DNA from: Haematococcus lacustris
Taxonomy: Eukaryota; Chlorophyta; Chlorophyceae; Chlamydomonadales; Haematococcaceae
Reading direction: 5' to 3'
NCBI GenBank assembly: GCA_030144725.1
Contig: JASKMD010000022.1
Span: 1 to 64,000 of the forward strand
Length of the DNA stretch: 64,000 nt
Below the pieces are notes generated by a model that was given only the letters and a program-made list of their open reading frames with translations, ran no database searches and was not told where the DNA came from. Every line of letters begins with the position of its first letter. Position 1 is the first letter of the stretch. The translations under genes were made by a program, and so were the position numbers. Shown here piece by piece: positions 22,713-57,576 of the stretch.

Positions 22713-22744
<32 letters not shown>

Positions 22745-23957: not shown

Positions 23958-24008
<51 letters not shown>

Positions 24009-25602: not shown

Positions 25603-25683
25603 ATAGGTGGTCATGGCAGCATGGGTTGGCATCAGGGGAGGAACATCAGGTCAGGGTGGTGCACGATGTGCATGACAAGGGCA

Positions 25684-26139
25684 ATGGGTTGCGTTGCTTT
25701 GTTGAAAGCACTTGGACCTGCCATGTCATATGTGGGCTGAATCTGATCCTATAGCACTGAAAACAATGGATTGGTGAATCTCACAATGAATGGTTCACGT
25801 GTGCAGTGGCTGGGGTTAGGGGTAGGGGTAGGGCTGGCATGCATGGGCATCCACTCCCTGGGGGTATTGCACTTGATATCTTGTCACTTGTCTGTTATGC
25901 ACTTGTGCAAGTTAGTGACAGTGCGGTAGGGAAATGTGAGGTTCAACCTGAACATTTGGTATGTAGGATATTGTGACATGGGGGGCTAGTGTGTAGTTTT
26001 CTGGCAAGTGTGTGCTAGGCCTGGTGCTGGGGTACATGAGGTGCATGTTGGTAGGCTTGTTGCTTAGCCTCATTAGCCTTTATGAACACAACCCAACATT
26101 GCCTCATGCCTGATATTTTTAATGCAATGGTAGTGCCTG
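25684..26139. other. non-coding outer part of left arm
   Basis: Palindrome-arm sequence pairing with 56864-57319. It contains a short degenerate GGGGTAGG stretch at 25815-25835. No gene seen. Confidence 0.6.
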
Positions 26140-26355
26140 GCATGGAATAGGTTGAGGTGGTTGTAGGTGAGGTGGTCTGGCGGCATAGGTTTGCAACAAG
26201 AGAGGGGGGTCGGGCGTGGGTGACACGAGATGTCAGGACATGGGGGCAAGGCTGGGATTGGGTGGTGATTGCGTTGGAACCTACCTATGCACAGATGTTG
26301 TTGCTGCAGCGCCTCATGCCAGGTACGTTCACTCCAATGATGGTGCCTGGCATAG
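26140..26355. repeat. 212-bp repeat unit interrupted by LTR element
   Basis: One unit of the 212-bp family (main array 29050-30110), pairing with 56648-56863 in the right arm. The LTR element begins at 26356, immediately after CATAG, the left target duplication. Confidence 0.85.
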
Positions 26356-26768
26356 TGTTACAGTGCTGCTGCGCGGTCAGGATGCATGGCTGGCTGCGAA
26401 CTAAACTCCGGCTGCAGCCGCCAGATACATGTTGCCGCTGTGGCTGACTACGTACTCGTAGACAGCTTCCGACTAGCGTGGCAGTGCTTTGTACTTACAT
26501 CGTCAAGAAGATGGCATCAGTAAAACACTTCTCAACGCATTCCTACGTCACTGAACCAGTCATCCGATCCAGAGTCCCCAGAAGTCAGAAGTCCGAAGTC
26601 CCCAAGTCCCACAATAAGCAGCGCTCAGCCTTAAGTAAGCCAAGAACAACTAACAACCGTCATGACAAAGTAAGACATGACAAACCCAAATCTCGCATGC
26701 AGGGCTGGAAAGATCTGCATGCGCATTTCAAAACAAATGCATTCTAGGTTCAAAGCAGGACTGTAACA
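26356..26768 (-). repeat. LTR (3' LTR of the minus-strand element)
   Basis: 413 bp, beginning TGTTACAG and ending CTGTAACA; it appears identical to 28631-29043. Confidence 0.9.
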
Positions 26769-26781
26769 CTCTCCCCCACTC
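26769..26781 (-). other. polypurine tract
   Basis: Read on the minus strand this is GAGTGGGGGAGAG directly abutting the LTR, the position and composition expected for the plus-strand primer of reverse transcription. It sets the element's orientation. Confidence 0.7.
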
Positions 26782-28612
26782 CAAAAAGCTACGTCCCGGA
26801 GCTTGCATCGTCTGGGTGAGACAGTCATTCGAACACAAAGCAGGCAGGCAGTTAAAAGCAGGCAGGCAGGTAAAAGCAACCATGCACATGCTACATGCAA
26901 ACAAGCAGTCATGCACCACGCTACATGCACACCAGGTGCAAGAGAGCACAAGCTAAGTGTCTCGATGTTGTCTTGTTCTCCACTCTAGAGCTGGCGTCAG
27001 CTCGCGGTGATGACATATCCAGACGTGAAACCAGCAGCCGAGTGATGCATAAGAAAGCAAGAGAAGGTGGTAGCAAGAGAAGTTGGTAGATGTTGTGATT
27101 GATAGAGGTGGTGGTAAACGTGAACAGTTGGGTGAACCGAACTGTTGTGCACATGGAAGACACCATTGTGCGACGCATGTGGTATTCTCGACGTGAACCG
27201 GCCTTCTTGCCAGCCAGTGCAGCCGCTCGGTGGCGCTGGTACTGTACATCTGCGTGTGGAGAGTTACTCCTTCGTGTTTGTGTGTGTTCGGGTTTTCTTT
27301 CCCCTGCGTTGTGTTGTATTTGTTCGGGATCTCATTGCCCAGGACGTTAGACGCGCCCCTTGCTGTGTGTGTTTGTGTATTCGTTGTTGTTTGTTGTGTT
27401 GTATTTGTTCGGGATCTCATTGCCCAGGACGTTTGACGCGCCCTCTGCGTGTGTTTTCGTTGGCGGTCGTCGCGCCCTCCTCTGTGTGTGTGATTGCTTG
27501 TTCTTGTCTTCTCGTTATCTCGCTGTGCAACTGCGGATTGTGCTATGGTTGTTGCTATGCAGAGGCTGATGCCTGTACACCCAATGTGTGTGGCCGTCCA
27601 TGCAGGTGCGTCTGCCCTGCTATGTGCCGTTGTGTGCTTCCCTAGGTCTTGCCTGGGTTGCCAGAGTGTGCACTAGCTGTGCCGCTAGCGGCTTGAGAGC
27701 TGTGGCTGGCTGCTGAGCTGGTCTAGCTCTGATTGTCATGCCAATGATGTGCTGACCTGCTGCTGCAGGTTGTCCTTGGTGTGGATTGTGGGTAGCTGGA
27801 GTATGTGTTTTGTGTATGCACACAGCTCAGCGGCTGGTGTCAGTTGGCGTCAGTGGGTCAGGTGGTGTCAGCGTCATGTGAGCATAGGGACGTGCTCACA
27901 GCTCAACAACTGGTTGTGGTATGTGCTCTCATGTCACACTAGTCAACAGGTTGTGGTATAGCGTGTCACTATGTTGTGCATGCTGATGGTTGAGGTGGAG
28001 GGTGTCTTATGACATGATGGTAGATTGAGTCAGTAGAATGACTTGTAACTGTGTTGATGGCTTTGTAGCTTGAGGCACCGTGCTTGGTGCTTCGGCCCAA
28101 CTGTGTGCCCTAATGGACTGGTAGAAGCTGAGACACAACCAATAAAACATGGCTGGCTTTACAATGTCAACGTATCGTGAGGGTGGTGGTGGGGTTGATG
28201 GTGGTGTGCGTCGCTGTGAGCTGCATGTCAACTCGGCTGCGAAGTGAAGCTGTCGTGCTGGTCCCGCGAGGTACTAGGGTCCCGCGAGGTACGGAGTCCA
28301 GAGTTCACTGCAAAGAGCAGGTAGCACTGCATGCAGCAGGTAAAGCACTGCTTGCGCAGGTAGTCACCGCTTACGCAGGTAAACACCGCTCTCGCGGGTA
28401 GTCACTGCTTTCGCAGGTGGGCACCGCTTTCGCGGGTAGGCATTTGAAACACTGCAGGTACAAACACTGCAGGTCAGCGTTTCGAGTTGAGCAGCTGGGC
28501 AAGCTTACATTGCGATGGTGCTGATGGGTCAGCGCTTTAAGCCTTCGGAATTGTTGCACCGGAGGTGCTCTCGAAGGCTCTGCGTTGCGAGGCAAGAGCA
28601 CAGGCCGATGAT
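26782..28612. other. interior of non-autonomous LTR element, no coding capacity recognised
   Basis: No retroviral-type motif (DTG, YxDD, HHCC, DDE) was found in any frame. The largest open frames (about 155-166 codons) overlap on opposite strands and look random. 27290-27440 contains the GTTCGGGATCTCATTGCCCA duplication. Confidence 0.6.
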
Positions 28613-28620
28613 CGATGCGA

Positions 28621-28628
28621 GGAAACCA
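28621..28628 (-). other. primer-binding site core TGGTTTCC
   Basis: On the minus strand the interior begins TT followed by TGGTTTCCTCGCATCG, two bases inside the LTR. The Ty3/gypsy element at 44034 has TGGTTTCC at the same spacing, suggesting a common primer tRNA 3' end (GGAAACCA). The tRNA itself is not identified. Confidence 0.55.
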
Positions 28629-28630
28629 AA

Positions 28631-29043
28631 TGTTACAGTGCTGCTGCGCGGTCAGGATGCATGGCTGGCTGCGAACTAAACTCCGGCTGCAGCCGCCAGA
28701 TACATGTTGCCGCTGTGGCTGACTACGTACTCGTAGACAGCTTCCGACTAGCGTGGCAGTGCTTTGTACTTACATCGTCAAGAAGATGGCATCAGTAAAA
28801 CACTTCTCAACGCATTCCTACGTCACTGAACCAGTCATCCGATCCAGAGTCCCCAGAAGTCAGAAGTCCGAAGTCCCCAAGTCCCACAATAAGCAGCGCT
28901 CAGCCTTAAGTAAGCCAAGAACAACTAACAACCGTCATGACAAAGTAAGACATGACAAACCCAAATCTCGCATGCAGGGCTGGAAAGATCTGCATGCGCA
29001 TTTCAAAACAAATGCATTCTAGGTTCAAAGCAGGACTGTAACA
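28631..29043 (-). repeat. LTR (5' LTR of the minus-strand element)
   Basis: 413-bp direct repeat of 26356-26768 with the same TG...CA termini. Confidence 0.9.
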
Positions 29044-29049
29044 CTTAGA

Positions 29050-30110
29050 ATAGGGGGGGCCGGTAGTAGGTACAGGTGGTTGTAACAGCATATATGTGCA
29101 ACAGGTGAGGGGGGTCGGGTGTGGGTGACACAAGATGTGAGGACATGGGCGCAAGGTTGGGACAGTGTGGAGATTGCGTTGGAACCTACATGTGCACATC
29201 CGCTGTTGCTGCAGCGCCTCATGCCAGATATGTTCAGTCTAATGGTGGTGCCTTGCATACAATAGGTTGGGCGGGTAGTAGGTACAGGTGGTCATAGCAG
29301 CATATGGTTGCAACAGCAGAGGGGGGTTGCGTGTGGGTGACAGAAGATGTGAGGACATGGGCGCAAGGTTGGGACAGGGTGGCCATTGCGTTGGAACCTT
29401 GGTGTGCACAACTGCTGTTGTTGCAGTGTCTCATGACAGATATGTTCACTGCAATGGTGGTACCTGGCATGGATTACGTTGGGCAGGAAGTAGGTACAGG
29501 TGGTCGTAGCATCATGAGTGTGCAACAGATCAGGGGGGTTGGTTGTGGGTGACGCAAGATGTGAGGACATAGGCGCAAGGTTGGGACAGGATGGTGATTG
29601 CGTTGGAACCTACCTGTGCACACCTGCTGTTGCTGTAGCGCCTCATGCCAGATACGTTCACTGCAATGGTGGTGCCTGGCATACAATAGTTTGGGCAAGT
29701 AGTAGGTACAGGTGGTCGTAGCAGCACATGTTTGCAATAGGTGAGGGGGGTCGGGTGTGGGTGACACAAGATGTGAGGAGATGGGCGCAAGGTTGGGACA
29801 GGGTGGTGATTGCATTGGAACCTACCTGTGCACACTTGTTGTTGCTGTAGCACCTCACTCCAGATACGTTCACTCCAATGGTGGTGCCTGGCATACAATA
29901 GTGTGGGCAGGTAGTAGGTACAGGTGGTCATAGCAGCATATGTTTGCAACAGGAGAGGGGTTTTGGTGTGGTTGACACAAGACTGGGGGACATGGGCGCA
30001 AGGTTGGGACAATGTGGTGATTGCGTTGGGACCAAGCCGTGTACAGCTGCTGTTGCTGCAGCGCCTTACCCTAGACATGTTCACTGGAATGGTGGTGCTG
30101 GGCATCTAAA
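29050..30110. repeat. 212-bp tandem repeat, five units
   Basis: GTAGGTACAGG recurs at 29066, 29278, 29490, 29702 and 29914, an exact 212-bp period. The right arm has only two equivalent positions (56411 and 56623), so three units (636 bp) differ between arms. No function is recognised. Confidence 0.93.
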
Positions 30111-30782
30111 CATATACCATTGAATCAATGGGTTGGTGGATCTCACAATCAATGGGTGAAGGGCAAGGTACTTGGAGATGTGTTGTATTGTACTGGATCT
30201 GTTGTCATTTGTGAGCTAGGCACTTGTGCAAGTTAGTGACAGTCTGGCTGGAAATGTGAGGTTGACCCTGAAACACTTGGGTTGTAGGTTGCTTTGACAT
30301 GTCAGGCCAGTGCGTAGTCGCTCATGTAAGTAGGCAACTAAGTGCTAGGACTGCTGAGAGGCACCTGAGGCACATGGTGTTAGGCTTGTTGGTGAGCCTT
30401 ACTAGCCTTTATGTACACAATGCTTACCGTTGTACACACGAATTGTAGGAACGTCCAGTGGTCCTTTGGCGGTTGTCATGCTGGTGTTAACCATATCCTG
30501 AGCAAGCCGGCCAATCGAACGGTGCAATCCTACGCTATGACCTATTGAGGTAAATGGGATACGCGGTCTGGTCATTCCATTTCAGCGTACCTGAGAAACA
30601 TAGAATTCCATCACGGGTGACAACGAGTGCACACTCGAGGGATTTGTAAGGTATGTAATGAGCAGCGATTTGAGATGGCGCAATGAAGGACGCAAGCGCA
30701 AACTGCAATCGGGTTAAATGTTTGCATGGCTTCAATAACTTCATTGATTGCACATGCCATATAGCTTGAATAACCTCATTGA
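30111..30782. other. non-coding palindrome-arm segment
   Basis: Pairs with 55552-56220 on the right arm with few differences. An 85-codon-scale frame at the 30535 end reads into the 12-bp array and is not credible as a gene. Confidence 0.6.
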
Positions 30783-31310
30783 TTGGTGCAATCACGGGTG
30801 CAGTCATGGGTGCAGTCACGAATGCAGTCATGGGTGCAGTCACGAGTGCAGTCACGGGTGCAGTCACGAGTGCAATCACGAGTGCAGTCACGGATGCAGT
30901 CACGAGTGCAGTCACGAGTACAGTCACGAGTGCAGTCACGGGTGCAGTCACGAGTGCAGTCACCAGTGCAGTCACGGGTGCAGTCAGGGATGCAGTCACG
31001 GGTGCAGTCACGAGTGCAATCACGGGTGCAATCACGAGTACAGTCACGAGTGCAGTCAAGGGTGCAGTCATGAGTGCAGTCATGAGTGCAATCACGAGTG
31101 CAGTCGCGAGTGAAGTCACGAGTGCATTCACGAGTGCAGTCACGGGTGCAGTCACGGGTGCAGTCAGGGATGCAGTCACGGGTGCATTCACGAGTGCAAT
31201 CACGGGTGCAGTCAAGGGTGCAGTCACGGGTGCAGTCACCAGTGCAGTCACGGCTGCAGTCACGGGTGCAGTCATGAGTGCAGTCACGATTGCAGTCACG
31301 CTGCTGCAAC
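30783..31310. repeat. 12-bp minisatellite, left-arm copy
   Basis: Reverse complement of the GTGACTGCACTC unit at 13401-14160, about 44 units with variants. It is 48 bp (four units) longer than its mirror at about 54735-55205. It lies just beyond the 3' end of the left gene copy. Confidence 0.92.
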
Positions 31311-31482
31311 GGGTGTTGAGAGGCATGATGTGTTGTAGGGTTAGGTCTGAATCGACATGCACGATGGTACGGGAGAAAAAGGTACCATGGCACAGGTAAC
31401 GATGCAGGCACTATTATTGGCACTAATGCAAGCGTGGATGCAGGCACCAATGCAGCAATGCTTGTATCATGCTGCAACCAGA

Positions 31483-31487
31483 TTACA
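31483..31487 (-). terminator. putative TGTAA polyadenylation signal, left gene copy
   Basis: TGTAA on the minus strand, about 145 bases after the stop codon. TGTAA is the usual poly(A) signal of chlorophycean nuclear genes; assignment to this gene is inferred from position only. Confidence 0.35.
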
Positions 31488-31629
31488 TGACATGAAAACC
31501 ACATTACAATCAGCGCATTATCATTCTCATGTTGTGACTGCCAACAGAATTGCTGCATTGATGGTCCCTCAGCTGCCACCCAATGTCGAATTCAATCATG
31601 GTCACTCTGCCACCATCCAATCTCTAGGC

Positions 31630-34600
31630 TCACTTGTGGCCCCCACGCTTGGGATGACGACCAGCAGCCTGCTGCTTGGTGGCTGTTGCTTTTCCTCCCC
31701 CCCTCCTCTGCTTTGCCGCGTCTGCTGTGGGCTCTTGTACTCCAGCTGCTGCATACCACTGCTTTTTCATCAGCTGCAGCGTGTCATCTGAGAACTCATC
31801 CAGCCAATCTGGGACCCACATAACGTCCTCTTCTGTTGTAGGTGGAGGGCTGTAAAGGACTCGTGGCTCATATGTGCCCGCTCCTGGCCCCTGCCACGCT
31901 GACACCTTGGGGTTGCTGCCTTCCCAGAGCTCTGTGGTTGGCTGGCACAAGCTGTCGAACAGAGGGCCAAACTCAGAGACGTAGCAGGTGGTGTCGGACT
32001 GAAACCCTGTAGACGCATAGAAGTGCACGCGCACTGACCCTGTGCCGGGCTGGCCCTCATCCCCCGCATGGATCGTGTACCCACGCATCCCCAGCACCTG
32101 ACCTGCTTCCAAGGTCACACGCCTCACCTCCTGGACAGGCATGGTGCTGAGTGCCCGGTCCAGGGCTGCGTCGCATTGCTCACTAGTTCCCTCACCGGCC
32201 CAGTACTTCTCGACCAGCTTCACCCATTTGTGACTTTTGAGAATGAGGAGGATGCTGACACGCTGCATGGCCATGATTAGCACCATGCCATCACGTTCAA
32301 CCTTGGCTACCTTACGCTTTGGCAATGGGCGCTGCTTCTTGGACGCTCGCTGCTTGGAAGACAGGTGACGCTTGGGGGAGGGTTGGCGCCTGGGGGATGC
32401 ATGTCCACTGGGGCCAGCACCATGTGATGCTTGGCTGCAGGATGGTGCGCAGGGAGTGGCTGGAAGGTGAGCTGTGGCTGTCATTTGGCAGGGGGGTGAG
32501 GGTTGGTCTGCATCAGAGTCAGAGCCAGAGTCAGAGCTAGGTGGCTGGGCTGCTCGAGCTGCTTTCTCTTCATCTGTCAGCTCGGGCCGCACATCGACGT
32601 GCAAGGCCTGAGCGGGCGCCAAACCAGTCGCTGGCTTCTTCTTCGGTTGTGCCCCCACGTGCTGATGATATGGATCGTTGCACAAGATAGTGCCACCACG
32701 GAGAGGTGAGGTGACCAGCTGCAGAGCCCTGAGCTGCAGCCGCTTCAAGCAGGCCTGGGCCCACTTGATGGCAGCCAGATGGCGTAGCTGCATGTCACAG
32801 TCCAGGTTGATGAACTTCTCAAGCTGCCTCTCATTCAGCAAGCCTGCCATGGACACCTCATCAGCTAGCCTGCCATCCTGCTGAGGGCTGGTGAAGAGAA
32901 GCTGCTTGCGCTGCCATGAGCCATAGTCTGTCTTGACCTCCTGCATACAAGCAACACGCATAACCCAACTGTGTACATGCATGTTTGGTGGCATTGTGGT
33001 CATGTGGTATGGTGGGATTGTGATCATGTTGACGTGACTTTGTGAACATAGCTGCTGTTGCAGTATGAAGTAGCGTGTGCATCTCTACTACACACACGCA
33101 CGTTTCCTTTCTTTCTCTTGACGACGTGCATGGACCCATCTTTCAGGGTGGCAAACTGCTTGAAGATGACGTTGGCGTAATGCATGGCCAAGGTCAACAA
33201 CGCCCACAGCTCCTGGTCTGAGGGCATGGTTGCATCTCCGACCACTGTCACTGCACAGCCATCTTCCATGACTGCAGCTTGGAACTCCTTCTCCTCCCCT
33301 AGTTGGAACACCCTCAAGGGCAGCGGCCTGTAGCCAGCTGGTGTCCACTGAGTACCACTGCTTGCCTGCAGAGGTGCTTGCACACCCTGCACATGCACCA
33401 CAACATGAAACATGGTGTTCATGAAACTGACCATCTCACATGAGTGCGTGAAAGGCGTATACTGCATGTTGTTACAAAAGCCATGTGATTCATGTTATCT
33501 CGTTGTCATAAACTTTAACTGCATGGCATGGAGCAATGTTGTTTGGGTTTGACTGCCATACCTGGCGTGCCCGTGCCTCTTCTTCTGATTTGTGCTTCAT
33601 TATCCCATGGATACCTTCGATCATGCCTTCCACTTTTCCAGGCTGGCCTGCATTTCCTCCAGCCTTGGTTGCATGGTCTCCATCTGGGCGATGTGCTCCT
33701 TCATGTCCTGCAATCACAACATTGCCTAATCACCTTGCCTAGTGTGTATCTACTGGCATGAATGCTGACTTTCCTAACTGCTAGTGACTTACAGCCATGT
33801 CTTTCTTGATTTTCTCCACAGTCATCTTCAGCTGGCCTCCTTCTGATTGCTGTGTCAGATGGCCTTCTTCTTGCCTGGGTTCCTACAACATGCAGTGGTG
33901 CACAAGCAGCTGTGCCATGGTGCAGCAGCGAGCATATAGTGATGCAGCATTTGACATGCACTGGTCAAGCAGCTAGCATGTAGTGGTGCAGCATCTAACA
34001 TGTTGTGATGCAGCATCAGGCTTGCAAGGGTGTAGGAGTGTGCAAAGGTAACAGCAACAGTATGCAAAACATTAGGCAGCAATGGTCATGGACTGGGTGA
34101 CAAGCACCATGCAGTGGATCATCTGCAAGTAGGCACGACGGCATGAGCATGGTTGTAATGCAGGAAAAGCAACATTAGTGTGAGGCATAGCATGCAAGGT
34201 GTGAAGCAGCATGTGGCACGTGGTGGTGTACGAGCAAGCATGCTATGGTGCAGTATCATGCACATGGAGGCAATGCAAAATGCATGTGGTGGTATAACAG
34301 CAGGCATGCAGCAGTCTGAAATTAGCAGGCAGTGATGCAATGAGCCTTCATGTCTGCCAATCTGATTGCTTGCTTGCCTGTCCTTCAACGTGATGGCCCT
34401 GCCTGTCTTCATGCCTGCGTGCTCCCTGCATGCCAGCATGGCAGCAACAGTACGGCAGCAGCATCAGTGTTGCAGGAGCAGCAAGACAGGAGCAAAGCAA
34501 GAATAGCGCATCAGTTGCATAGCAACGTATTAGCGCACCAGCTGCAGCACAGCAGCAGCAGCACAGCAGCAGCAGCAGCAGCAGCACAGCATCAGGAGGG

Positions 34601-37369: not shown

Positions 37370-37589
37370 TGCTGTCCGTTAGGGCACGCTAACTTCTGTT
37401 GTGTGGCTTTGACTCACTCGCCTTGAAGTGGTGGACTGTACCGAAGGTCATGCAAGCCGTGATATTTGTTGTTTTCAGTGACCCTAGGCCACATTGAAAG
37501 AAACAAATGCCCAGTACGTGGTGTGCTGCTGCAGGCACCAATGCAGGCAGGACTGTAGGCACGTGTGCAGGCACTGACGCATTCACGGT
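37370..37589. other. 5' flank of left gene copy
   Basis: About 220 bp between the proposed ATG and the 12-bp array, mirrored at about 38095-38314. Any promoter for the gene would lie here or inside the array; I recognise no defined element. Confidence 0.4.
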
Positions 37590-37754
37590 TGCAGACATGG
37601 GCACAATCACGAGTGCAATCACAAGTGCAGTCACGGGTGCAGTCACAGGTGCGGTCACGGGTGCATTGACCGCTGCAGTGACGAGTGCAGTAACGATGCA
37701 GTCACGAGTGCAGTCAAGCGTGCAGTCACGAGTTCAATCACGAGTACAGTCATG
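37590..37754. repeat. 12-bp minisatellite, apex left
   Basis: GTGCAGTCACGA-type units leading into the central telomere tract; up to 37727 it is mirrored at 37957 onward. Confidence 0.88.
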
Positions 37755-37956
37755 AGGGTTAGGGTTAGGGTTAGGGTAAGGGTTAGGGTGGGTTAGGGTT
37801 AGGGTTGGGTTAGGGGTTAGGGTTAGGGTTAGGGTTAGGGTTAGGGTTAGGGTTAGGGTTAGGGTTAGGGTTAGGGTTAGGGTTAGGGTTAGGGTTAGGG
37901 TTAGGGTTAGGGTTAGGGTTAGGGTTAGGGTTAGGGTTAGGGTTAGGGTTAGGGTT
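37728..37956. repeat. palindrome apex: interstitial telomere tract 4, (TTAGGG)n
   Basis: 229-bp non-palindromic spacer: 27 bases of the 12-bp repeat, then about 202 bp of TTAGGG (37755-37956). This is the only tract with the G-strand motif on the plus strand, i.e. oriented as a right-hand chromosome end, yet mirror-image sequence follows immediately. Confidence 0.97.
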
Positions 37957-38140
37957 GACTGCACGCTTGACTGCACTCGTGACTGCATCGTTACTGCACT
38001 CGTCACTGCAGCGGTCAATGCACCCGTGACCGCACCTGTAACTGCACCCGTGACTGCACTTGTGATTGCACTCGTGATTGTGCCCATGTCTGCAACCGTG
38101 AATGCGTCAGTGCCTGCACACGTGCCTACAGTCCTGCCTG
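37957..38140. repeat. 12-bp minisatellite, apex right
   Basis: Mirror of the left apex array, GACTGCACTCGT-type units, grading into degenerate units toward 38140. Confidence 0.88.
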
Positions 38141-44333: not shown

Positions 44334-44335
44334 AG

Positions 44336-44353
44336 TGGTTTCCGACCGATAAG
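44336..44353 (+). other. primer-binding site TGGTTTCCGACCGATAAG
   Basis: Starts two bases after the LTR with TGG, complementary to a tRNA CCA end. It shares TGGTTTCC with the non-autonomous element at 26356-29043. Confidence 0.6.
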
Positions 44354-46418: not shown

Positions 46419-49400
46419 GGTGTTGCCCTGTCAGGTAGCCAGACCTGTACTGTGGTACCCACATGTTCTGCTGCTGATGAACTTAAGACTGTACTCTGTG
46501 GTACTGCTCAAGAGGAGGGATCACTGCACTTCCTGTTTGCTGGCACTGTCAATGGGCATCAGGCCCGTTTCTTGTGTGATACTGGCGCCACACACTCCTT
46601 TGTCAGCACTGCCTTTGCTCTGAAGCATGCACTGCTGCTGTCTGCTCTACCCAAAGCACAGCAGTGGTCCCTTGCTGACAATCCCACTTTATCATGCCAT
46701 CAATTTGCTGCTGTAGACCTGTGTCTGCCTGGCCACTGTGCCACATGCAAGCTGACGGTCATGCCTAGCTTCGTGCAGGGTTATGATGTGCTTCTGGGTG
46801 GTGACTGGTTGTTTGCCAACAAGGCTATCCTTTCTTATGAGGGTAAAACCCTTTCCCTTTCTGCTGCTGGCAAGACTGCTGTGACTCTGCCATGTCCTGT
46901 TGTGGCAGCCCCTAAGTATGTTGGGCAATGTTCTGCTGTAAGACCAACCTTTGCATTCTTAATCAATGCTCTCAAAGCCAAACCTGAGTTAATCTCAGCT
47001 ACCCAGGCGTCCAGGTGGCTCCTTAAAGGTGGCCGTGCTGTGGTGGCTCTAGTCATGGCTGAAGGCTCAGCCTCTGCCAGTCCTGGTACACCCAGTGACC
47101 AAGACAACCCACACATACCTGCAGCTATCAAAGCTGAGCTGCAAACCCTACTCCATGAGTACAGTGATGTATTCAAACCACTCACTGATACACCCCCTGA
47201 ACGTCCTGTGGGTCATACCATACCCCTTGTCCCTGACGCCCGTCCACCTGTGACCCCCATGTACCGCCTCAGTAAACCTGAGCAAGAGGAGCTCAAGAGA
47301 CAGATCCAGGACTACCTGAGCAAAGGTATGATTGAGCCCAGCTCCTCCCCCTATGCTGCACCCATCCTGTTTGTGCAGAAGAAGTCAGGTGAGCTACGTA
47401 TGTGCATTGACTACCGTCAGCTCAACAAGCTCACACTACGTGACCAATACCCCCTGCCCAGGATTGATGATCTGTTTGACAGGTTGTCAGGGTGTTCTGT
47501 CTTCTCCTCCCTTGATCTACAAGCTGGCTACCACCAGATCAGGATCACCCCTGAGGACGTCCCCAAGACTGCCTTCAGGACTCCTGAAGGTCACTTCCAA
47601 TTCAAGGTGCTGTCCTTTGGCCTGACCAATGCCCCGGCCACCTTCCAGCGTGTCATGAATGATGCTTTTGCACCTGTCCTGGGCAAGTGTGCACTAGTGT
47701 ACCTAGATGACATACTGGTCATGTCTAAGTCTCTACCTGAGCACCTGCAGCACCTACGCCTTGTCTTTGACCTGCTGCGTAAAAACAAACTGTATGCCAA
47801 GATGTCCAAATGTGAGTTCATGCAGCTCACCCTCAGGTTTCTTGGGCATGTGATCTCAGCTGGTGCCATCTCTGTGGACCCTGATAAGGTGAGGGCCATT
47901 GTTGACTGGCCTGTCCCTTCATCCCTGACCCAACTGCAGTCCTTCCTGGGTGCTGCCAACTTTGTGCGCAAGTTTGTGCAAGGCTTCAGTGCCATCTCAG
48001 CACCCCTTACTGATCTGTGTGGCAAGCTCAGTGCCACCTTTCCATGGCACTCCTGGCCTGACCATGAACGTCTTGCCTTCTATGAGCTCAAAGCTGCTGT
48101 GGCTAACGTGCCTATGCTGCGCCTGCCAGATCACACCCAACCCTTCCAGATGTACTGTGATGCCTCACTCCAAGGAGTAGGTGCAGTCCTGATGCAGGAT
48201 GGGTATCCCCTTGCCTATTTGAGCAAGAAGTTGTCCTCTGCTGAGGTCAACTACACCACAGGTGAGCAAGAGATGCTTGCTCTTGTCACCGCATGCAAGG
48301 AATGGCGTTGCTACCTTGAAGGTGTGCCATTCACTCTGTTCACTGACCATAAGCCTTTGATTTCACTGCCTACACAGAAAAATCTGTCTAGGCGTCAGGC
48401 TAGGTGGATGGAACTGCTCTCTAGGTTTGACTTTAAACTAGAGTATATTCCTGGTCCTGTCAACCCAGCAGACCCTTCATCCCGGTTAATTACTGGCCTC
48501 CAGGAAAGTGCCACTGTGTGTGCAATGCTCACCAGAAGGCGGGCCCAACTTTCCCGTGAGGGGGAGGGAGCTAGTGTGGCTAGAGCCCTTGAGGCCAATG
48601 CCCCTGCTGCAGTCACTGCGAAATCCTCCTCAACTCCAGAAATTACTGAAAATACTACTGATACAAGCCATAACAGGGACTTTGTTCCCTTGGTCACCTG
48701 TACATCTGACACCTCAGTGCACTATCCTGCGGCTCCTGCCCATCCTCTGGGTTTGTCTGATCAACTCATCCAAGGATACCGGCTTGACCCTGCGTTTAAT
48801 GCTGAAGCTGATCTGTCCAGCATGTACCAGGACACACATGGCCTATGGCGGCTCACTAGTAAGGATAAGGTAGTGGTTCCCAATGACTCTGAGCTGCGCA
48901 ACCACATCTTGCACGAGATGCATGATGCAGTCTATTTAGGTCATGTGGGTATCAGTAAAACCTTGGAACGTGTGTCACGTGTGTTTTGGTGGAACACAAT
49001 GCGTGCTGACGTCAGGTACTATGTGTCCACATGTGATGCCTGTCAACGTGACAAGGCGTCTACTCTCAAGCCAGGTGGCCTACTCAACCCTCTGTCTATA
49101 CCTGACTACCGCTGGGAGTCTGTGTCCATGGACTTCATTACCAAGCTACCCTCTGGGTCACATGGGTATGATGCTATCTGTGTCTTTGTGGACAGGCTCA
49201 GCAAGATGGTTCACTTTGTGCCCTGCCGTGAGGACCTGAAGGCACGCCGTTTTGCACAACTGTTCATTGACCATGTGTACAAACTGCATGGCATGCCTGC
49301 TGAGCTGATCTCTGACCGGGGCTCACTGTTCACCAGTGTGTTCTGGCGGGAGGTCATGAGGCGCTGTGGCTCTAAGCCTGCCCTCTCATCATCTTATCAT

Positions 49401-50176
49401 CCACAGTCTGATGGCCAGACAGGGAGGTATAACCGTGTGTTAGAGGAGATGCTCAGGCACTACATCTCACCTACTCAATCTGACCGGCCTGACTACTTAG
49501 CCTTGGCTGAGTTTGCTGTCAACAACTCGTGGCAGGAGTCCATCCAATCCACTCCCTTCCTGGTCAACACAGGTCAGTCCCCTGTGACTTTGGCCTACTT
49601 GATCTGCCTTATGGGGGCCGTTGTCCCTCTGCTCATGCCTTTACCCGCTGGTGGCAGGATGCTGTTGCCAATGCCAGGAAGTGCATGGCTGCAGCCCAAT
49701 CCCGTCAGGCTGCCTATGCCAATAAGGCCAGGCGTGACGTTGAGTACAAGGTGGGCCAGAAGGTGTTGCTCAGCACCAAGAACCTCAAGCTTCAGCCTGG
49801 GAAGGCTCGTAAGCTCATACCTAGGTATGTGGGTCCCTTTGAGATCCTGCTTCTGGTTGGTGCAGTAGCTGTCAAGCTAGACCTGCCTGCCAGCATGAGC
49901 CGTCTGCACCCTGTCTTCCATGTGTCACTCATCAAGCCTTACACTGGCACTGATGTTGGCTTCATGCCACCTCCTGTGACATGGATGGATGAGACCCCTG
50001 TGTACTATGTCGAACGTTTGCTTGACCACAAGGGTGTCAAGGACAACAAAGCCAGTTACTACCTGGTGCAGTGGGAGGGCTATGACTCCACTCACAACAC
50101 CTGGGAGCCCAGGTCCAACCTGACTGACTGTGACAAGGTCTTGGCTGAATACAATGCTATCCATCATCTTAAGTAA
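46419..50176 (+). pseudogene. pol polyprotein (PR-RT-RNaseH-INT-chromodomain), frameshifted
   Basis: The frame is open from the gag TAG to 49868; numbering is from 46452. Aspartic protease motif DTGATHSF is at residues 43-50, RT with YLDD at 417-420, RNase H starting at Asp570 (CDASLQGVGAVL), integrase HHCC zinc region in 49000-49070, and DDE positions Asp894, Asp955 and residue 991. The last is Gly (DGQTGRYN) instead of the expected Glu, a single GAG-to-GGG change. Near 49595-49615 reading must shift from frame 0 to frame 2 (one base lost), after which GPF (RYVGPFEIL) and a chromodomain (YYLVQWEGYDSTHNTWEP) follow to TAA at 50174-50176. Family identity is certain; integrase activity is very unlikely. 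Pol is in the same frame as the gag tail, separated by one UAG. Confidence 0.93.
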
Positions 50177-50395
50177 GTCCCCTGCATGCATGCTGCCGCG
50201 CTGCTGCACTGAGGCACTCTCTTCTCTGTGCTTACAAAGCATATGGTTATATATTACAATTCCCCTATTACAGTTGGTCTCTGACCACACCCAGCTTTGA
50301 CCTGGCTCTACCTTCATGGTACCCAGTAGCTGACCAAGTGAGACCTAGGTCTTGCGAGTCTCGGGTTTAACCTGAGGCGGAACGGGCATCCCCTT

Positions 50396-50407
50396 GGGGG
50401 GGAGGAA
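50396..50407 (+). other. polypurine tract GGGGGGGAGGAA
   Basis: Purine run directly before the 3' LTR, the plus-strand priming site of reverse transcription. Confidence 0.85.
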
Positions 50408-50707
50408 TGTAAGGGCGCGCTCCGCGTAGTCCCTTAGTGTCGTCTGGGCTGTCGCGGTTAACCCGAGGCAGCTACAGGATATCGGTCACACCGCATTAGT
50501 GTGAGTTGGCAGGTTAAGCCTAGCAGCGTAAGCTGTGAGGACAACTGGTTCGATTCCAGGGGGCCCCGTTCTAAGCCCTAGCCTTCTCACGGTGGTGCCT
50601 TGTGGCCGACTGTTTAAGTACCCGCGGCTCGAGTGCCCTCGCGGCCGGCTCAGTGTTACATATGGTTCAAACGGTCCAACGTCGCCTTTATGAGGCTGCA
50701 CGTTACA
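50408..50707 (+). repeat. 3' LTR
   Basis: 300 bp, identical to 44034-44333 by base-by-base reading, followed by the ACTTG target duplication. Confidence 0.95.
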
Positions 50708-53700
50708 ACTTGGAGCGTACCTACAGCGCTTGTCTGTCTTCCCTACTGCCTTGATAGTGCCTCATCTTCACCAGCTGCCTGTTGCCTGAAGCTCACATGG
50801 TGACCAACTGCTTTAGTTATGTTGTATTGTGATCAGATGCCGTACTGCTCTGATGTTGCCCTATCATGCCCACTTTTGCAATGCATGACCACTGTTCCAA
50901 CATTGCACGTCTGCTTGCGCAATTCCACATGCCTACAGCAAGACCACCACAACCTTGCGCTGCACAACAGCATTCTGTTGCCGTATCTCTACATGCCTCC
51001 TGCAACTCCACCTACACTGACAACCTGCCACTGTGTCATGCAATCTGCTACCATGCCTTGATGTCTTGCTACCCTGTAACTGTCGTGCCCAATTTCAACA
51101 AAGTGATGTGTTGCGCTGTTGAACTGGGCTTTCACCATCCAATTGCCTTGCTGGCCTGCTGTCTTGCTGATGCCCAGGTTTGTCCCCTTCCTCAACTGCC
51201 ATCTCCATGCTACTACTACTGTTACCCTAGAACTGCTGCTGCCCTATTGCTGCTGGCATGCTGGCATGCTGGCATGTGACAAGTGCTGCTCCTCTGCTGC
51301 TACAGCCATGCTGACAGGCAGGCAGGGAGGCAGGCAGACAGACACGTAGGCAAAGAGGCAAGGAAGCAGCCAGGCAGGCAAGCAGGCAAGGGAGCAAGCT
51401 GGGAGGCAACAGGCTCAAGCTATACTGGTGCTGTTGCCCTCCTGATGCTGTGCTGCTGCTGCTGCTGCTGTGCTGCTGCTGCTGTGCTGCAGCTGGTGCG
51501 CTAATACGTTGCTATGCAACTGATGCGCTATTCTTGCTTTGCTCCTGTCTTGCTGCTCCTGCAACACTGATGCTGCTGCCGTACTGTTGCTGCCATGCTG
51601 GCATGCAGGGAGCACGCAGGCATGAAGACAGGCAGGGCCATCACGTTGAAGGACAGGCAAGCAAGCAATCAGATTGGCAGACATGAAGGCTCATTGCATC
51701 ACTGCCTGCTAATTTCAGACTGCTGCATGCCTGCTGTTATACCACCACATGCATTTTGCATTGCCTCCATGTGCATGATACTGCACCATAGCATGCTTGC
51801 TCGTACACCACCACGTGCCACATGCTGCTTCACACCTTGCATGCTATGCCTCACACTAATGTTGCTTTTCCTGCATTACAACCATGCTCATGCCGTCGTG
51901 CCTACTTGCAGATGATCCACTGCATGGTGCTTGTCACCCAGTCCATGACCATTGCTGCCTAATGTTTTGCATACTGTTGCTGTTACCTTTGCACACTCCT
52001 ACACCCTTGCAAGCCTGATGCTGCATCACAACATGTCAGATGCTGCACCACTACATGCTAGCTGCTTGACCAGTGCATGTCAAATGCTGCATCACTATAT
52101 GCTCGCTGCTGCACCATGGCACAGCTGCTTGTGCACCACTGCATGTTGTAGGAACCCAGGCAAGAAGAAGGCCATCTGACACAGCAATCAGAAGGAGGCC
52201 AGCTGAAGATGACTGTGGAGAAAATCAAGAAAGACATGGCTGTAAGTCACTAGCAGTTAGGAAAGTCAGCATTCATGCCAGTAGATACACACTAGGCAAG
52301 GTGATTAGGCAATGTTGTGATTGCAGGACATGAAGGAGCACATCGCCCAGATGGAGACCATGCAACCAAGGCTGGAGGAAATGCAGGCCAGCCTGGAAAA
52401 GTGGAAGGCATGATCGAAGGTATCCATGGGATAATGAAGCACAAATCAGAAGAAGAGGCACGGGCACGCCAGGTATGGCAGTCAAACCCAAACAGCATTG
52501 CTCCATGCCATGCAGTTAAAGTTTATGACAACGAGATAACATGAATCACATGGCTTTTGTAACAACATGCAGTATACGCCTTTCACGCACTCATGTGAGA
52601 TGGTCAGTTTCATGAACACCATGTTTCATGTTGTGGTGCATGTGCAGGGTGTGCAAGCACCTCTGCAGGCAAGCAGTGGTACTCAGTGGACACCAGCTGG
52701 CTACAGGCCGCTGCCCTTGAGGGTGTTCCAACTAGGGGAGGAGAAGGAGTTCCAAGCTGCAGTCATGGAAGATGGCTGTGCAGTGACAGTGGTCGGAGAT
52801 GCAACCATGCCCTCAGACCAGGAGCTGTGGGCGTTGTTGACCTTGGCCATGCATTACGCCAACGTCATCTTCAAGCAGTTTGCCACCCTGAAAGATGGGT
52901 CCATGCACGTCGTCAAGAGAAAGAAAGGAAACGTGCGTGTGTGTAGTAGAGATGCACACGCTACTTCATACTGCAACAGCAGCTATGTTCACAAAGTCAC
53001 GTCAACATGATCACAATCCCACCATACCACATGACCACAATGCCACCAAACATGCATGTACACAGTTGGGTTATGCGTGTTGCTTGTATGCAGGAGGTCA
53101 AGACAGACTATGGCTCATGGCAGCGCAAGCAGCTTCTCTTCACCAGCCCTCAGCAGGATGGCAGGCTAGCTGATGAGGTGTCCATGGCAGGCTTGCTGAA
53201 TGAGAGGCAGCTTGAGAAGTTCATCAACCTGGACTGTGACATGCAGCTACGCCATCTGGCTGCCATCAAGTGGGCCCAGGCCTGCTTGAAGCGGCTGCAG
53301 CTCAGGGCTCTGCAGCTGGTCACCTCACCTCTCCGTGGTGGCACTATCTTGTGCAACGATCCATATCATCAGCACGTGGGGGCACAACCGAAGAAGAAGC
53401 CAGCGACTGGTTTGGCGCCCGCTCAGGCCTTGCACGTCGATGTGCGGCCCGAGCTGACAGATGAAGAGAAAGCAGCTCGAGCAGCCCAGCCACCTAGCTC
53501 TGACTCTGGCTCTGACTCTGATGCAGACCAACCCTCACCCCCCTGCCAAATGACAGCCACAACTCACCTTCCAGCCACTCCCTGCGCACCATCCAGCAGC
53601 CAAGCATCACATGGTGCTGGCCCCAGTGGACATGCATCCCCCAGGCGCCAACCCTCCCCCAAGCGTCACCTGTCTTCCAAGCAGCGAGCGTCCAAGAAGC

Positions 53701-54546
53701 AGCGCCCATTGCCAAAGCGTAAGGTAGCCAAGGTTGAACGTGATGGCATGGTGCTAATCATGGCCATGCAGCGTGTCAGCATCCTCCTCATTCTCAAAAG
53801 TCACAAATGGGTGAAGCTGGTCGAGAAGTACTGGGCCGGTGAGGGAACTAGTGAGCAATGCGACGCAGCCCTGGACCGGGCACTCAGCACCATGCCTGTC
53901 CAGGAGGTGAGGCGTGTGACCGTGGAAGCAGGTCAGGTGCTGGGGATGCGTGGGTACACGATCCATGCGGGGGATGAGGGCCAGCCCGGCACAGGGTCAG
54001 TGCGCGTGCACTTCTATGCGTCTACAGGGTTTCAGTCCGACACCACCTGCTACGTCTCTGAGTTTGGCCCTCTGTTCGACAGCTTGTGCCAGCCAACCAC
54101 AGAGCTCTGGGAAGGCAGCAACCCCAAGGTGTCAGCGTGGCAGGGGCCAGGAGCGGGCACATATGAGCCACGAGTCCTTTACAGCCCTCCACCTACAACA
54201 GAAGAGGACGCTATGTGGGTCCCAGATTGGCTGGATGAGTTCTCAGATGACACGCTGCAGCTGATGAAAAAGCAGTGTTATGCAGCAGCTGGAGTACAAG
54301 AGCCCACAGCAGACGCGGCAAAGTAGAGGAGGGGGGGAGGAAAAGCAACAGCCACCAAGCAGCAGGCTGCTGGTCGTCAGCCCAAGCGTGGGGGCCACAA
54401 GTGAGCCTAGAGATTGGATGGTGGCAGAGTGACCATGATTGAATTCGACATTGGGTGGCAGCTGAGGGACCATCAATGCAGCAATTCTGTTGGCAGTCAC
54501 AACATGAGAATGATAATGCGCTGATTGTAATGCGGTTTTCATGTCA

Positions 54547-54551
54547 TGTAA
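54547..54551 (+). terminator. putative TGTAA polyadenylation signal, right gene copy
   Basis: Mirror of 31483-31487. TGTAA follows the ancestral stop by about 145 bases; the assignment is inferred. Confidence 0.35.
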
Positions 54552-54734
54552 CCTGGTTGCAGCATGATACAAGCATTGCTGCATTGGTGCCTGCATCCAC
54601 GCTTGCATTAGTGCCAATAATAGTGCCTGCATCGTTACCTGTGCCATGGTACCTTTTTCTCCCGTACCATCGTGCATGTCGATTCAGACCTAACCCTACA
54701 ACACATCATGCCTCTCAACACCCGTTGCAGCAGC

Positions 54735-55206
54735 GTGACTGCAACCGTGACTGCACTCATGACTGCACCCGTGACTGCAGCCGTGACTGCACTGGTGACT
54801 GCACCCGTGACTGCACCCTTGACTGCACCCGTGATTGCACTCGTGAATGCACCCGTGACTGCATCCCTGACTGCACCCGTGACTGCACCCGTGACTGCAC
54901 TCGTGAATGCACTCGTGACTGCACTCGCGACTGCACTCGTGATTGCACTCGTGACTGCACTCATGACTGCACCCTTGACTGCACTCGTGAATGCACTGGT
55001 GACTGCACTCGTGATTGAACTCGTGACTGCACCCGTGACTGCACTCATGACTGCACTCGTGACTGTACTCGTGACTGCACTCGTGACTGCATCCGTGACT
55101 GCACTCGTGATTGCACTCGTGACTGCACCCGTGACTGCACTCGTGACTGCACCCATGACTGCATTCGTGACTGCACCCATGACTGCACCCGTGATTGCAC
55201 CAATCA
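54735..55206. repeat. 12-bp minisatellite, right-arm copy
   Basis: Mirror of 30783-31310, shorter by four units (48 bp). It ends at CA, which is duplicated by the adjacent MITE. Confidence 0.92.
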
Positions 55207-55551
55207 CACTCCTACAAATTAATCCCTGCGTCCTTCCCTGCGTGTTGACCGACCTTGTCCGATCGGGCTGAAAATTTGATAGATGGTAGTTTGCAGAAAA
55301 TAAAACATATTTTTCACGAAAAATATCTTTAGAAAAATCAAAGGCGGCTGCGCTGTGGCCCTGTGGCTAGAGTGCAGGGATAAGTGCATGGATAGGTTGT
55401 AGGCCACAGCGCAACAGCTTTTGGATTTTCAAATATTATTCTTGAAAAATATGTTTTATTTTCTGAAAACTGCCATCTATCAAATTTTCAGCCCGATCGG
55501 ACAAGGTCGGTAAAATGCAGGGACAAACGCAGGGACTAAATTGTAGGAGTG
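55207..55551. mobile_element. hairpin MITE, copy 1
   Basis: 345 bp beginning CACTCCTACAA and ending TTGTAGGAGTG, with the target duplication CA (55205-55206 and 55552-55553), present once at the left-arm mirror site. The terminal inverted repeats are imperfect and extend through most of the element, so it can fold as one long hairpin. No coding capacity. CACTC ends and a 2-bp duplication are shared with the 39711-43374 element. Confidence 0.92.
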
Positions 55552-56222
55552 CAATGAGGTTATTCAAGTTGTATGGCATGTGCAATCAATGAAGTTATTG
55601 AAGCCATGCAAACATCCAACCCGATTGCAGTTTGCGCTTGCGCCCTTCATTGCGCCATCTCAAATCGCTGCTCATTACATACCTTACAAATCCCTCGAGT
55701 GTGCACTCGTTGTCACCCGTGATGGAATTCTATGTTTCTCAGGTACGCTGAAATGGAATGACCAGACCGCGTATCCCATTTACCTCAATAGGTCATAGCG
55801 TAGGATTGCACCGTTCGATTGGCCGGCTTGCTCAGGATATGGTTAACACCAGCATGACAACCGCCAAAGGACCACTGGACGTTCCTACAATTCGTGTGTA
55901 CAACGGTAAGCATTGTGTACATAAAGGCTAGTAAGGCTCACCAACAAGCCTAACACCATGTGCCTCAGGTGCCTCTCAGCAGTCCTAGCACTTAGTTGCC
56001 TGCTTACATGAGCGACTACGCACTGGCCTGACATGTCAAAGCAACCTACAACCCAAGTGTTTAGGGTCAACCTCACATTTCCAGCCAGACTGTCACTAAC
56101 TTGCACAAGTGCCTAGCTCACAAATGACAACAGATCCAGTACAATACAACATATCTCCAAGTACCTTGCCCTTCACCCATTGATTGTGAGATCCACCAAC
56201 CCATTGATTCAATGGTATATGT
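55552..56222. other. non-coding right-arm segment
   Basis: Mirror of 30110-30781; no gene seen. Confidence 0.6.
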
Positions 56223-56863
56223 TTAGATGCCCAGCACCACCATTCCAGTGAACATGTCTAGGGTAAGGCGCTGCAGCAACAGCAGCTGTACACGGCTTGG
56301 TCCCAACGCAATTACCACATTGTCCCAACCTTGCGCCCATGTCCCCCAGTCTTGTGTCAACCACACCAAAACCCCTCTCCTGTTGCAAACATATGCTGCT
56401 ATGACCACCCGTACCTACTACCTGCCCACACTATTGTATGCCAGGCACCACCATTGGACAGAACATATCTGGCATGAGGCGTTGCAGCAACACCAGGTGT
56501 GCACAGGTAGGTTCCAACGCAATCAACAAACTGACCCAACCTTGCGCCCATGTCCTCACATATTGTGTCACCCACACCCAACCCCCCTCACCTATTGCAA
56601 ACATATGCTGCTATGACCACCTGTACCTACTACCTGCCCAACCTATTGTATGCCAGGCACCACCATTGGAGTGAACGTACCTGGCATGAGGCGCTGCAGC
56701 AACAGCATCTGTGCATAGGTAGGTTCCAACGCAATCACCACCCAATCCCAGCCTTGCCCCCATGTCCTGACATCTCGTGTCACCCACGCCCGACCCCCCT
56801 CTCTTGTTGCAAACCTATGCTGCCAGACCACCTCACCTACAACCACCTCAACCTATTCCATGC
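56223..56863. repeat. 212-bp tandem repeat, right-arm copies
   Basis: About three units, inverted relative to 29050-30110. GTACCTAC recurs at 56411 and 56623 (212 bp). The unit at 56648-56863 is the uninterrupted counterpart of the unit carrying the LTR element at 26356. Confidence 0.9.
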
Positions 56864-57576
56864 CAGGCACTACCATTGCATTAAAAATATCAGGCATGAG
56901 GCAATGTTGGGTTGTGTTCATAAAGGCTAATGAGGCTAAGCAACAAGCCTACCAACATGCACCTCATGTACCCCAGCACCAGGCCTAGCACACACTTGCC
57001 AGAAAACTACACACTAGCCCCCCATGTCACAATATCCTACATACCAAATGTTCAGGTTGAACCTCACATTTCCCTACCGCACTGTCACTAACTTGCACAA
57101 GTGCATAACAGACAAGTGACAAGATATCAAGTGCAATACCCCCAGGGAGTGGATGCCCATGCATGCCAGCCCTACCCCTAACCCTAACCCCAGCCACTGC
57201 ACACGTGACCCATTCATTGTGAGATCCACCAATCCATTGTTTTCAGTGTTATAGGATCAGATTCAGCCCACATATGACATGGCAGGTCCAAGTGCTTTCA
57301 ACAAAGCAACGCAACCCATAAAGCATGAGTTGGAATCGAACCAGGCTGCGAGCTCATCATTGTAAAGGCTACTGACTTTTTTCGTGTTTGTCACACACAT
57401 GTACACACATACATTTTTCCAAAAGACTTGTGCCAAGCGAGGGTTACAGACTTGCACACATCGTACCTGCTAGCACATGCACGACAACAGACAAACAATC
57501 AAGTGATGGCTGCGCATTACTGCTCATGCCTTGTTAAATTTCAGCAGATCAGTTGGGCTGCTGCGTGCCGTACAGG
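56864..57576. other. outer right arm and unique junction, no gene
   Basis: 56864-57319 mirrors 25684-26139. Homology stops sharply after 57319. 57320-57576 is unique; a GGTTCGATTCC box on its minus strand (about 57331-57341) lacks the rest of a tRNA. No gene supported. Confidence 0.6.

Follow-up and report, generated by a model that had tools for sequence, protein, structure and literature searches.

Organization of the locus

The window examined here is a 64,000-bp stretch of DNA from Haematococcus lacustris, a red-pigment alga, and forms the start of scaffold C110. It contains no undetermined bases (N) and belongs to a gap-free contig of 65,123 bp that ends 1.1 kb beyond it. Within the window no Rfam family matched at gathering thresholds and no tRNA was detected with ARAGORN.

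Self-comparison of the window revealed a large inverted repeat, consisting of a left arm (L, 25684–37727, forward strand) and its inverted copy, the right arm (R, 37957–57319, reverse strand). An earlier note, made from the sequence, had placed these arms as mirror images around a spacer of 229 bp, and the self-comparison reproduced that arrangement to the base. Five collinear inverted blocks make up the repeat: 25684–26354 with 57319–56649 (99.0% identity), 29424–30781 with 56906–55552 (94.3%, including a 212-bp satellite whose copy number differs between the arms), 30827–35321 with 55207–50708 (98.7%), 35317–35975 with 44033–43375 (98.3%) and 35974–37728 with 39710–37956 (99.7%). The length and identity of the blocks rule out a chance match. 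A 12-bp satellite in L (30786–31300, forward strand) is mirrored at 54734–55200, and a second 12-bp array lies at the tip of L (37607–37754, forward strand).

The arms are unequal in length because they differ in satellite copy number and in four transposon insertions, one in L and three in R. The insertion found only in L (26356–29045) is an LTR-type element with identical 415-bp direct repeats and a target duplication, CATAG/CTTAG, with one mismatch; its empty site is uninterrupted in R. Restricted to R are a Ty3-type LTR retrotransposon (44034–50707, forward strand; identical 300-bp LTRs, target duplication ACTTG, polyprotein reading frame at 46452–49868) and a DNA transposon with perfect 18-bp terminal inverted repeats (39711–43374), the sites of both being uninterrupted in L. 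The fourth insertion, also confined to R, is a palindromic MITE-like element (55207–55551), of which a second copy with 90% identity lies at 58573–58920.

Both arms carry the same open reading frame, in line with the earlier proposal that a gene and its flanks were duplicated as a unit. The L copy has 465 codons (31630–33027, reverse strand), while the R copy (53007–54326, forward strand) is cut to 439 codons by a premature stop at codon 440. A protein search found just two relatives, both from H. lacustris, and a broader search with an alignment of the three sequences added none to these two. The 465-residue product matched no Pfam family, and its predicted structure was discarded (mean pLDDT 39). 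All seven differences between the L and R copies alter or stop the protein; no constraint is visible among them, seven being too few for a test of selection.

Divergence between the arms

In unique sequence (31301–37600) L and R differ at 35 of 6,297 sites, or 0.56%, and in the two outer blocks outside the arrays they diverge by 0.9–1.0%. The first blocks hinted at similarity increasing toward the apex of the repeat. However, successive stretches of unique sequence gave 0.47%, 1.68% and 0.31%, and no gradient is claimed. A 653-bp island between the two large insertions of R holds 11 differences in 653 sites, compared with 24 in 5,644 elsewhere (Fisher P 0.0006 for this post hoc comparison). 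Such an excess would allow exchange between L and R to be tested.

The 35 differences in unique sequence, together with the four arm-specific insertions, show that the repeat did not arise from reading a single molecule both ways, which rules out a copied single read or a missed sequencing adapter. The adapter reading fails on a second count as well, in that a read reversing at a telomere would yield TTAGGG meeting CCCTAA.

The apex

The spacer (37728–37956) is composed of 27 bp of L sequence (37728–37754, forward strand) followed by a telomeric tract, T4, of 202 bp (37755–37956, forward strand). T4 consists of TTAGGG only, so that the earlier description of the spacer as mostly TTAGGG in one orientation holds for 202 of the 229 bp; a head-to-head junction of TTAGGG and CCCTAA is absent from the apex. 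Four irregular units occur 22–61 bp from the L side of T4, after which the repeats are pure up to R. This polarity places the base of the tract on the left, with its tip meeting R. Taking all five telomeric tracts of the window together, the 15 variant units lie on average at 0.28 from the base (P about 0.002); this P value assumes uniform and independent variant positions and is optimistic, because the two irregular units of tract T2 are not basal and the eight of T1 may represent few events.

In R the 27 bp next to the base of T4 are missing, which puts the joint at or near a chromosome terminus. The joint itself has 1 bp of inverted homology or overlap (A at 37728 against T at 37956), position 37728 serving both as the first of the 27 bp missing from R and as the overlap with the end of T4. 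What is present is an inverted repeat of terminal DNA, the terminal status of which rests on the polarity of T4.

We searched the H. lacustris genome with the apex-proximal 1.76 kb of the arm. With 40 of 68 candidates scored, the search returned L, R and one paralog of 83–85% identity inside scaffold C89; a single-arm version at another chromosome end, which the earlier note had suggested looking for, was not seen among them. In the C89 paralog the second 12-bp array continues where T4 starts in the window, and TTAGGG is absent. T4 therefore caps a truncated array.

Other telomeric tracts and the outer borders

The window holds four further telomeric tracts that went unmentioned in the earlier note, all of them CCCTAA (reverse strand). 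T1 (6237–6650) separates the subtelomeric blocks U1 and U2, and T2 (12852–13269) separates U2 from U3. T3 (25470–25601) lies on the outer side of L, with, by its orientation, its base at L and its tip leftward. The flank of T3, X (24723–25469, forward strand), shares 88% identity with the flanks on the left of T1 and T2; all three are joined to TAACCC at the identical point. Between T3 and the mirrored part lie 82 bp of diverged, satellite-like sequence (25602–25683, forward strand), where an alignment to the 212-bp satellite unit crosses position 25684 at 62% identity. On its outer side L is capped by T3, with the mirrored part stopping 82 bp before it.

Beyond R the arrangement is different. 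A 258-bp filler, X5 (57318–57575, forward strand), separates R from T5 (57578–57691, reverse strand), the tip of which faces X5 and the base of which lies rightward. X5, which at 57320–57376 includes part of a high-copy repeat, is 96% identical to an uninterrupted interior stretch of scaffold C127, where other DNA flanks it. Since X5 is uninterrupted in C127 and the sequence beyond T5 differs from the continuation found there, both the R/X5 and X5/T5 borders are breakpoints, and T5 is a place where unrelated sequences meet rather than an insertion. The outer flanks of L and R are unrelated to each other in the self-comparison, and the outer borders of the two arms fall at nearly equal arm coordinates.

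Telomeric tracts are common inside the scaffolds of this genome. A tract alone consequently proves little, and the inference to a recent chromosome end is weakened. Among 18 telomeric tracts compared, each flanked by 400 bp or more on either side, mirrored flanks occur only at T4; the flank match obtained for T5 reflects the two MITE-like copies.

Origin of the inverted repeat

With a probability of about one half, we favor an explanation in which two copies of one chromosome end fused and left the inverted repeat as a scar. Either two sister chromatids or, this alga being diploid, two homologues would have been the partners. On the L copy some 200 bp of telomere would have survived, and on the R copy the telomere and about 27 bp more would have been lost. 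The joint would then connect the telomere tip of L with the exposed end of R, overlapping by no more than 1 bp and formed through end joining or fold-back. Joining of a capped end to an uncapped, otherwise identical one was already put forward in the earlier note, and it suits the single orientation of T4, its base at L and the absence of the last 27 bp from R. Afterwards the product was presumably trimmed and recapped, leading outward from L into T3 and outward from R into X5 and the tip of the T5 telomere, and the four transposons would have entered one or the other arm after the duplication. The order of these events, as well as any dicentric intermediate, is conjectural.

Several observations count against end fusion. 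The mirrored part stops 82 bp before T3, and the near-equal outer borders are not explained by one random bridge break. With L capped by T3 and R joined to X5 and the tip of T5, the outer ends do not resemble the product of one simple bridge break, and the breakage-fusion-bridge origin suggested earlier is at most a possibility. A terminal-looking CCCTAA array in the assembly reaches 3,110 bp or more, far longer than T4. The placement of the contig is uncertain, a 500-N gap following at C110:65124-65623. In PMC4864465, telomere fusions in one human cell line had a mean overlap of 3.01 nt when intra-chromosomal and 1.62 nt when inter-chromosomal; the 1-bp overlap at T4 is below the former and nearer the latter.

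The fold-back process can also be taken as the whole explanation, which we consider possible but doubtful. The 3' G-rich end of the telomere of L would have folded back and annealed within the 12-bp array at a point 27 bp inward of the telomere base; R would have been synthesized from this primer, and the 229-bp spacer would be the unduplicated loop. Consistent with this, the spacer is contiguous with L and absent from R, and according to PMC3907307 an unduplicated spacer was present in 21 of 21 sequenced junctions of human fold-back duplications, sister fusion being expected to leave none. Likewise, PMC4981268 reports that palindromes in telomere-losing yeast formed without a significant contribution from ligase 4. 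However, the joint has only 1 bp of inverted homology, while 13 of the 21 human junctions had 2–8 bp and another 3 about 300 bp; the human spacers measured at least 766 bp against 229 bp here (PMC3907307). An end that retains telomeric repeats would also be expected to be less prone to folding back.

It is improbable that telomerase or repair later placed telomeric repeats into a break at the center of an existing palindrome. Palindrome centers are fragile, and short tracts do occur in seemingly unique DNA of this genome (scaffold C1 near 592, 1176, 1806 and 1937 kb). Against such an insertion, the irregular units of T4 all lie on one side, a weak argument because the first units added de novo can be irregular too, and the neighboring T5 joins unrelated sequences.

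We regard as similarly improbable that the assembler joined two separate, similar chromosome ends at a telomeric tract. The contig is short, at least one telomere-like array lies behind an N gap inside a scaffold, and the assembly measures 307.9 Mb, probably holding both haplotypes in part, compared with a purged assembly of 151 Mb from another strain (PMC7617258). Yet the window is free of N, two telomere-bearing ends would meet as TTAGGG-CCCTAA, and there is no reason for a false joint to fall within 27 bp of a telomere base. The unrelated outer flanks of the arms further indicate that these are not simply two alleles.

More doubtful still is a reading in which L, about 9.5 kb long once the young LTR element is subtracted, would be a complete linear unit with a telomere at each end (T3-L-T4) and R a second copy lacking both telomeres as well as 27 bp on the inside and 82 bp on the outside, both copies being then captured at a chromosome end. 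Were it true, the locus would preserve an inverted dimer of an extrachromosomal or mobile block with telomere caps, and the genome would be one that trades such blocks between the ends and the interior of its chromosomes. An arrangement of two alleles of one chromosome end head to head is unlikely, both from the unrelated outer flanks and because the 0.56% divergence of unique sequence is below the 1.5–1.65% heterozygosity given for another strain in PMC7617258.

Comparison with known systems

As described in PMC3463808 and PMC4864465, sister-chromatid fusion and breakage-fusion-bridge cycles produce a terminal inverted repeat with small terminal loss and later capping or translocation of the broken end. 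The repeat and the small loss recur here, and the outer ends may reflect such later capping or translocation. Unlike those products, the present repeat retains about 200 bp of the telomere of one partner at its apex, in a single orientation and with an overlap of 1 bp. Human fold-back inverted duplications share a spacer contiguous with one arm and absent from the other (PMC3907307), but the spacer here is 229 bp and mostly telomere, and the joint shows 1 bp of inverted homology. At the human 2q13-2q14 head-to-head fusion, too, an interstitial telomeric tract marks where an old fusion took place (PMC6410037); there TTAGGG meets CCCTAA, whereas T4 has a single orientation.

MoTeR arrays of Magnaporthe oryzae are also chromosome-end blocks with telomere tracts between them. 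As described in PMC7367193, two relics bear TTAGGG at both boundaries, and internal tracts break and are then repaired by end joining or copying. The sequences are different from those of the window, and no telomeric retrotransposon was recognized among the selected reading frames scanned, the sole reverse transcriptase found being that of an LTR element. Yeast carries tandem subtelomeric Y' elements with telomeric repeats between them, which U1–U3 resemble in having one orientation and a telomere tract between blocks, although the sequences are unrelated. We know of no counterpart for the inverted pair of L and R.

Cultured human cells and mutant yeast are the main sources of known fusions between a short telomere and a bare sister end. 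The products of such fusions tend toward continued rearrangement (PMC3463808). Most likely the locus represents a known type of accident that is here unusually readable: an apparent fusion of this kind preserved in a natural genome, with its history recorded in the polarity of the telomere, the missing bases, the filler and four subsequent insertions. Among the listed matches of a literature search there was no publication on interstitial telomeric tracts in Haematococcus, although one may exist. Internal tracts are numerous in this genome and some have recurrent partners at base and tip, so that it could reveal movement of telomere-capped blocks between chromosome ends and interiors. Scaffold C1 may also contain a classical head-to-head tract, near 592.5 kb.

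Locus and assembly context

The scaffold that begins with the window (C110) is 1,515,144 bases long, in an assembly of 307,914,905 bases and 597 contigs. Bases fetched past the window show that the gap-free contig holding it measures 65,123 bp and is followed by 500 N, and the position of this contig at the C110 end reflects the assemblers' scaffolding. A previous genome report gives AACCCT as the H. lacustris telomere motif, a diploid genome, and a heterozygosity of 1.5-1.65% in the strain of that study (PMC7617258). In scaffold C1 (4.97 Mb) of the present assembly, at least 3,110 bp of nearly pure CCCTAA stand right after a 500-N gap, from 2288591 onward (2892-6001 of the fetched locus). This array resembles a chromosome end set inside the scaffold, which suggests that some joins of the assembly may be wrong.

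Structure and divergence of the inverted arms

Comparison of the window with itself recovered five collinear inverted blocks between a left arm, L (25684-37727, plus strand), and a right arm, R (37957-57319, minus strand), and the giant inverted repeat described in an earlier note was thereby found to be exact to the base in both its arms and its spacer. The 229-bp spacer is made up of 27 bp unique to L (37728-37754) and a 202-bp TTAGGG tract in a single orientation, T4 (37755-37956). The main part of the length difference between L and R is due to four inserted elements, for each of which the opposite arm has the uninterrupted site; satellite copy number supplies the remainder. L carries an LTR-type element (26356-29045), with one mismatch in its target duplication, while R carries a DNA transposon with 18-bp perfect terminal repeats (39711-43374), a Ty3-type LTR retrotransposon with a 5-bp target duplication (44034-50707) and a MITE-like element (55207-55551). 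Both LTR insertions are young, since the paired long terminal repeats match at every aligned base (300/300 in the Ty3-type element and 415/415 in that of L). The Ty3-type polyprotein has 95% identity over 94% of its length to an H. lacustris protein, and this species supplies the majority of the top-ranked matches among the 120 listed of 7,760 matched.

L and R are distinct DNA. Alignment of their unique sequence (31301-37600) shows 35 differences in 6,297 sites and 2 gap openings; in the outer blocks 6/651 and 7/679 sites differ, and the satellites diverge more (24/442 and 11/467). With a paralog of the apex-proximal arm on scaffold C89 as outgroup, eight substitutions within 35786-37752 were polarised, five being derived in L, two in R and one ambiguous. 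In a post hoc comparison, the 653-bp island enclosed by the two large R insertions (43375-44033) holds 11 differences in 653 sites versus 24 in 5,644 elsewhere, a divergence about four times that of the rest, and the island was perhaps sheltered from exchange between the arms. A search for a single-arm copy elsewhere, limited to the 1.76 kb adjoining the apex, found none among the 40 of 68 candidates scored.

The duplicated unit contains a 465-codon ORF (31630-33027 in L, minus strand), with an early stop in the R copy; all seven differences between the copies are non-synonymous or nonsense. With 7,992 candidates scored, only two H. lacustris proteins matched it at E ≤0.001 (60% identity over 41% of the ORF and 51% over 28%), and a Pfam search of the ORF returned no fitting family.

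Polarity and flanks of the apical tract

In true telomeres, irregular repeat units tend to lie near the base, whereas the tip tends to be pure. Counted from the L side, irregular units of T4 start at 22, 34, 50 and 55 bp, and the last 140 bp towards R are pure, so the base of T4 lies at L and its tip touches R. In the C89 paralog (83-85% identity) the 12-bp array that hosts the start of T4 continues without TTAGGG, so the array of L was cut and capped at this point. On C89 itself, the 12-bp array and some of its flank are inverted (2378849-2379520 and 2382153-2382824; 672 bp, 89.7%) around approximately 2.6 kb.

Four further tracts are found in the window, all CCCTAA: T1 (6237-6650), T2 (12852-13269), T3 (25470-25601) and T5 (57578-57691). 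In a post hoc analysis of where variant units lie along each tract, the 8 of T1 (relative positions 0.02-0.36) and the single one of T5 (0.29) are consistent with the orientations of these tracts, T3 has no variant units, and the two variants of T2 (0.55 and 0.88) run contrary to the trend.

Flanks were compared by minus-strand BLASTN (≥60 bp, E ≤1e-5, low-complexity filter on). The window and fetched loci provided a non-random set of 22 different tracts (6 from the top of the C1 list, 11 obtained via the 12-bp satellite, 5 from the window). The comparison covered the 18 whose flanks reach 400 bp or more on each side, the 4 with short flanks being left out. T4 alone among these 18 had mirrored flanks within 3 kb per side; the match in the T5 flanks consists of two MITE-like copies.

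Outer ends of the arms

In arm coordinates, no more than 82 bp separate the outer borders of L and R. L extends 82 satellite-like bp past its mirrored part to T3, and because an alignment to the 212-bp satellite unit crosses the mirrored border of L (at 62%), L looks continuous here and R cut. R adjoins a 258-bp filler, X5 (57318-57575), with 2 bp common at the joint (AT). X5 is uninterrupted within scaffold C127 at 96% identity, and 1.5 kb on each side of that site contained no other window sequence (E ≤1e-5), no two-repeat telomere run and no N. X5 meets the tip of T5, the far side of which differs from the C127 continuation. Since C127 holds X5 intact and the far side of T5 is not C127-like, R/X5 and X5/T5 are rearrangement breakpoints, and T5 is therefore a junction rather than a simple insertion. 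Part of X5 (57320-57376) falls in a high-copy repeat (40 of 1,298 candidates scored), which we take to be SINE-like with a tRNA B-box-like motif.

Formation of the inverted repeat

As a minimum, the apex would require that a short telomere tip on one copy was joined to the bare, 27-bp-shortened end of a second copy, both presumably copies of the same chromosome end. Two known routes lead to such a joint: end joining between a capped and an uncapped end of sisters or homologues, and fold-back synthesis on a single strand. The 1-bp overlap at the apex does not discriminate between these routes and is small for both: two human studies give mean fusion overlaps, in one line, of 3.01 nt (intra-chromosomal) and 1.62 nt (inter-chromosomal) (PMC4864465), and fold-back joints that share either 2-8 bp or some 300 bp (PMC3907307).

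The mechanism proposed in the earlier note agrees with the apex insofar as a capped end would have met an uncapped version of the same end. The breakage-fusion-bridge cycle it suggested is not taken as proven, mainly because a bridge broken at random would not leave near-equal outer borders. Their near-coincidence is also the main reason for retaining an alternative that we consider quite improbable, in which L is a block capped by telomeric repeats at both ends (T3-L-T4). Following the joining of a capped to an uncapped copy, the later steps would have been a second break, capping by T3, and capture via X5 and T5.

Other telomeric tracts in the window and genome

T1, T2 and T3 separate subtelomeric blocks and have in common a left flank, X (24723-25469 at T3), that meets TAACCC at the identical base. 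Window base 1 aligns after 48 bases of a tract-associated block, so another telomeric tract probably lies immediately left of the window. A recurrent arrangement among loci retrieved via the 12-bp satellite is the base sequence AGTCACACAC followed by (TTAGGG)n. Its tip adjoins X on scaffolds C40, C420 and C175, and different partners at another C175 site, on C396 and C251, and on C1 near 306 kb. On C251 and C6, X is paired with bases of other sequence, and T3, with X at its tip and a base other than AGTCACACAC (L), is of this kind. Exchange inside telomeric repeats would produce such mixtures of base and tip.

Telomeric repeats are common inside scaffolds of this genome. Matches to (TTAGGG)4 number 13,418 in forward and 14,472 in reverse orientation, a total of 27,890 that is not a tract count, since matches overlap within tracts. 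Several tracts sit in apparently unique C1 DNA. At about 592.5 kb on C1 (2919-3125 of the fetched locus) TTAGGG repeats pass into degenerate CCCTAA, a layout like that of a classical head-to-head fusion. Within the window, 15979-24111 is an approximately 8-kb region of repeats (22-bp, CAGG and GCT) whose GC content is near 0.7.
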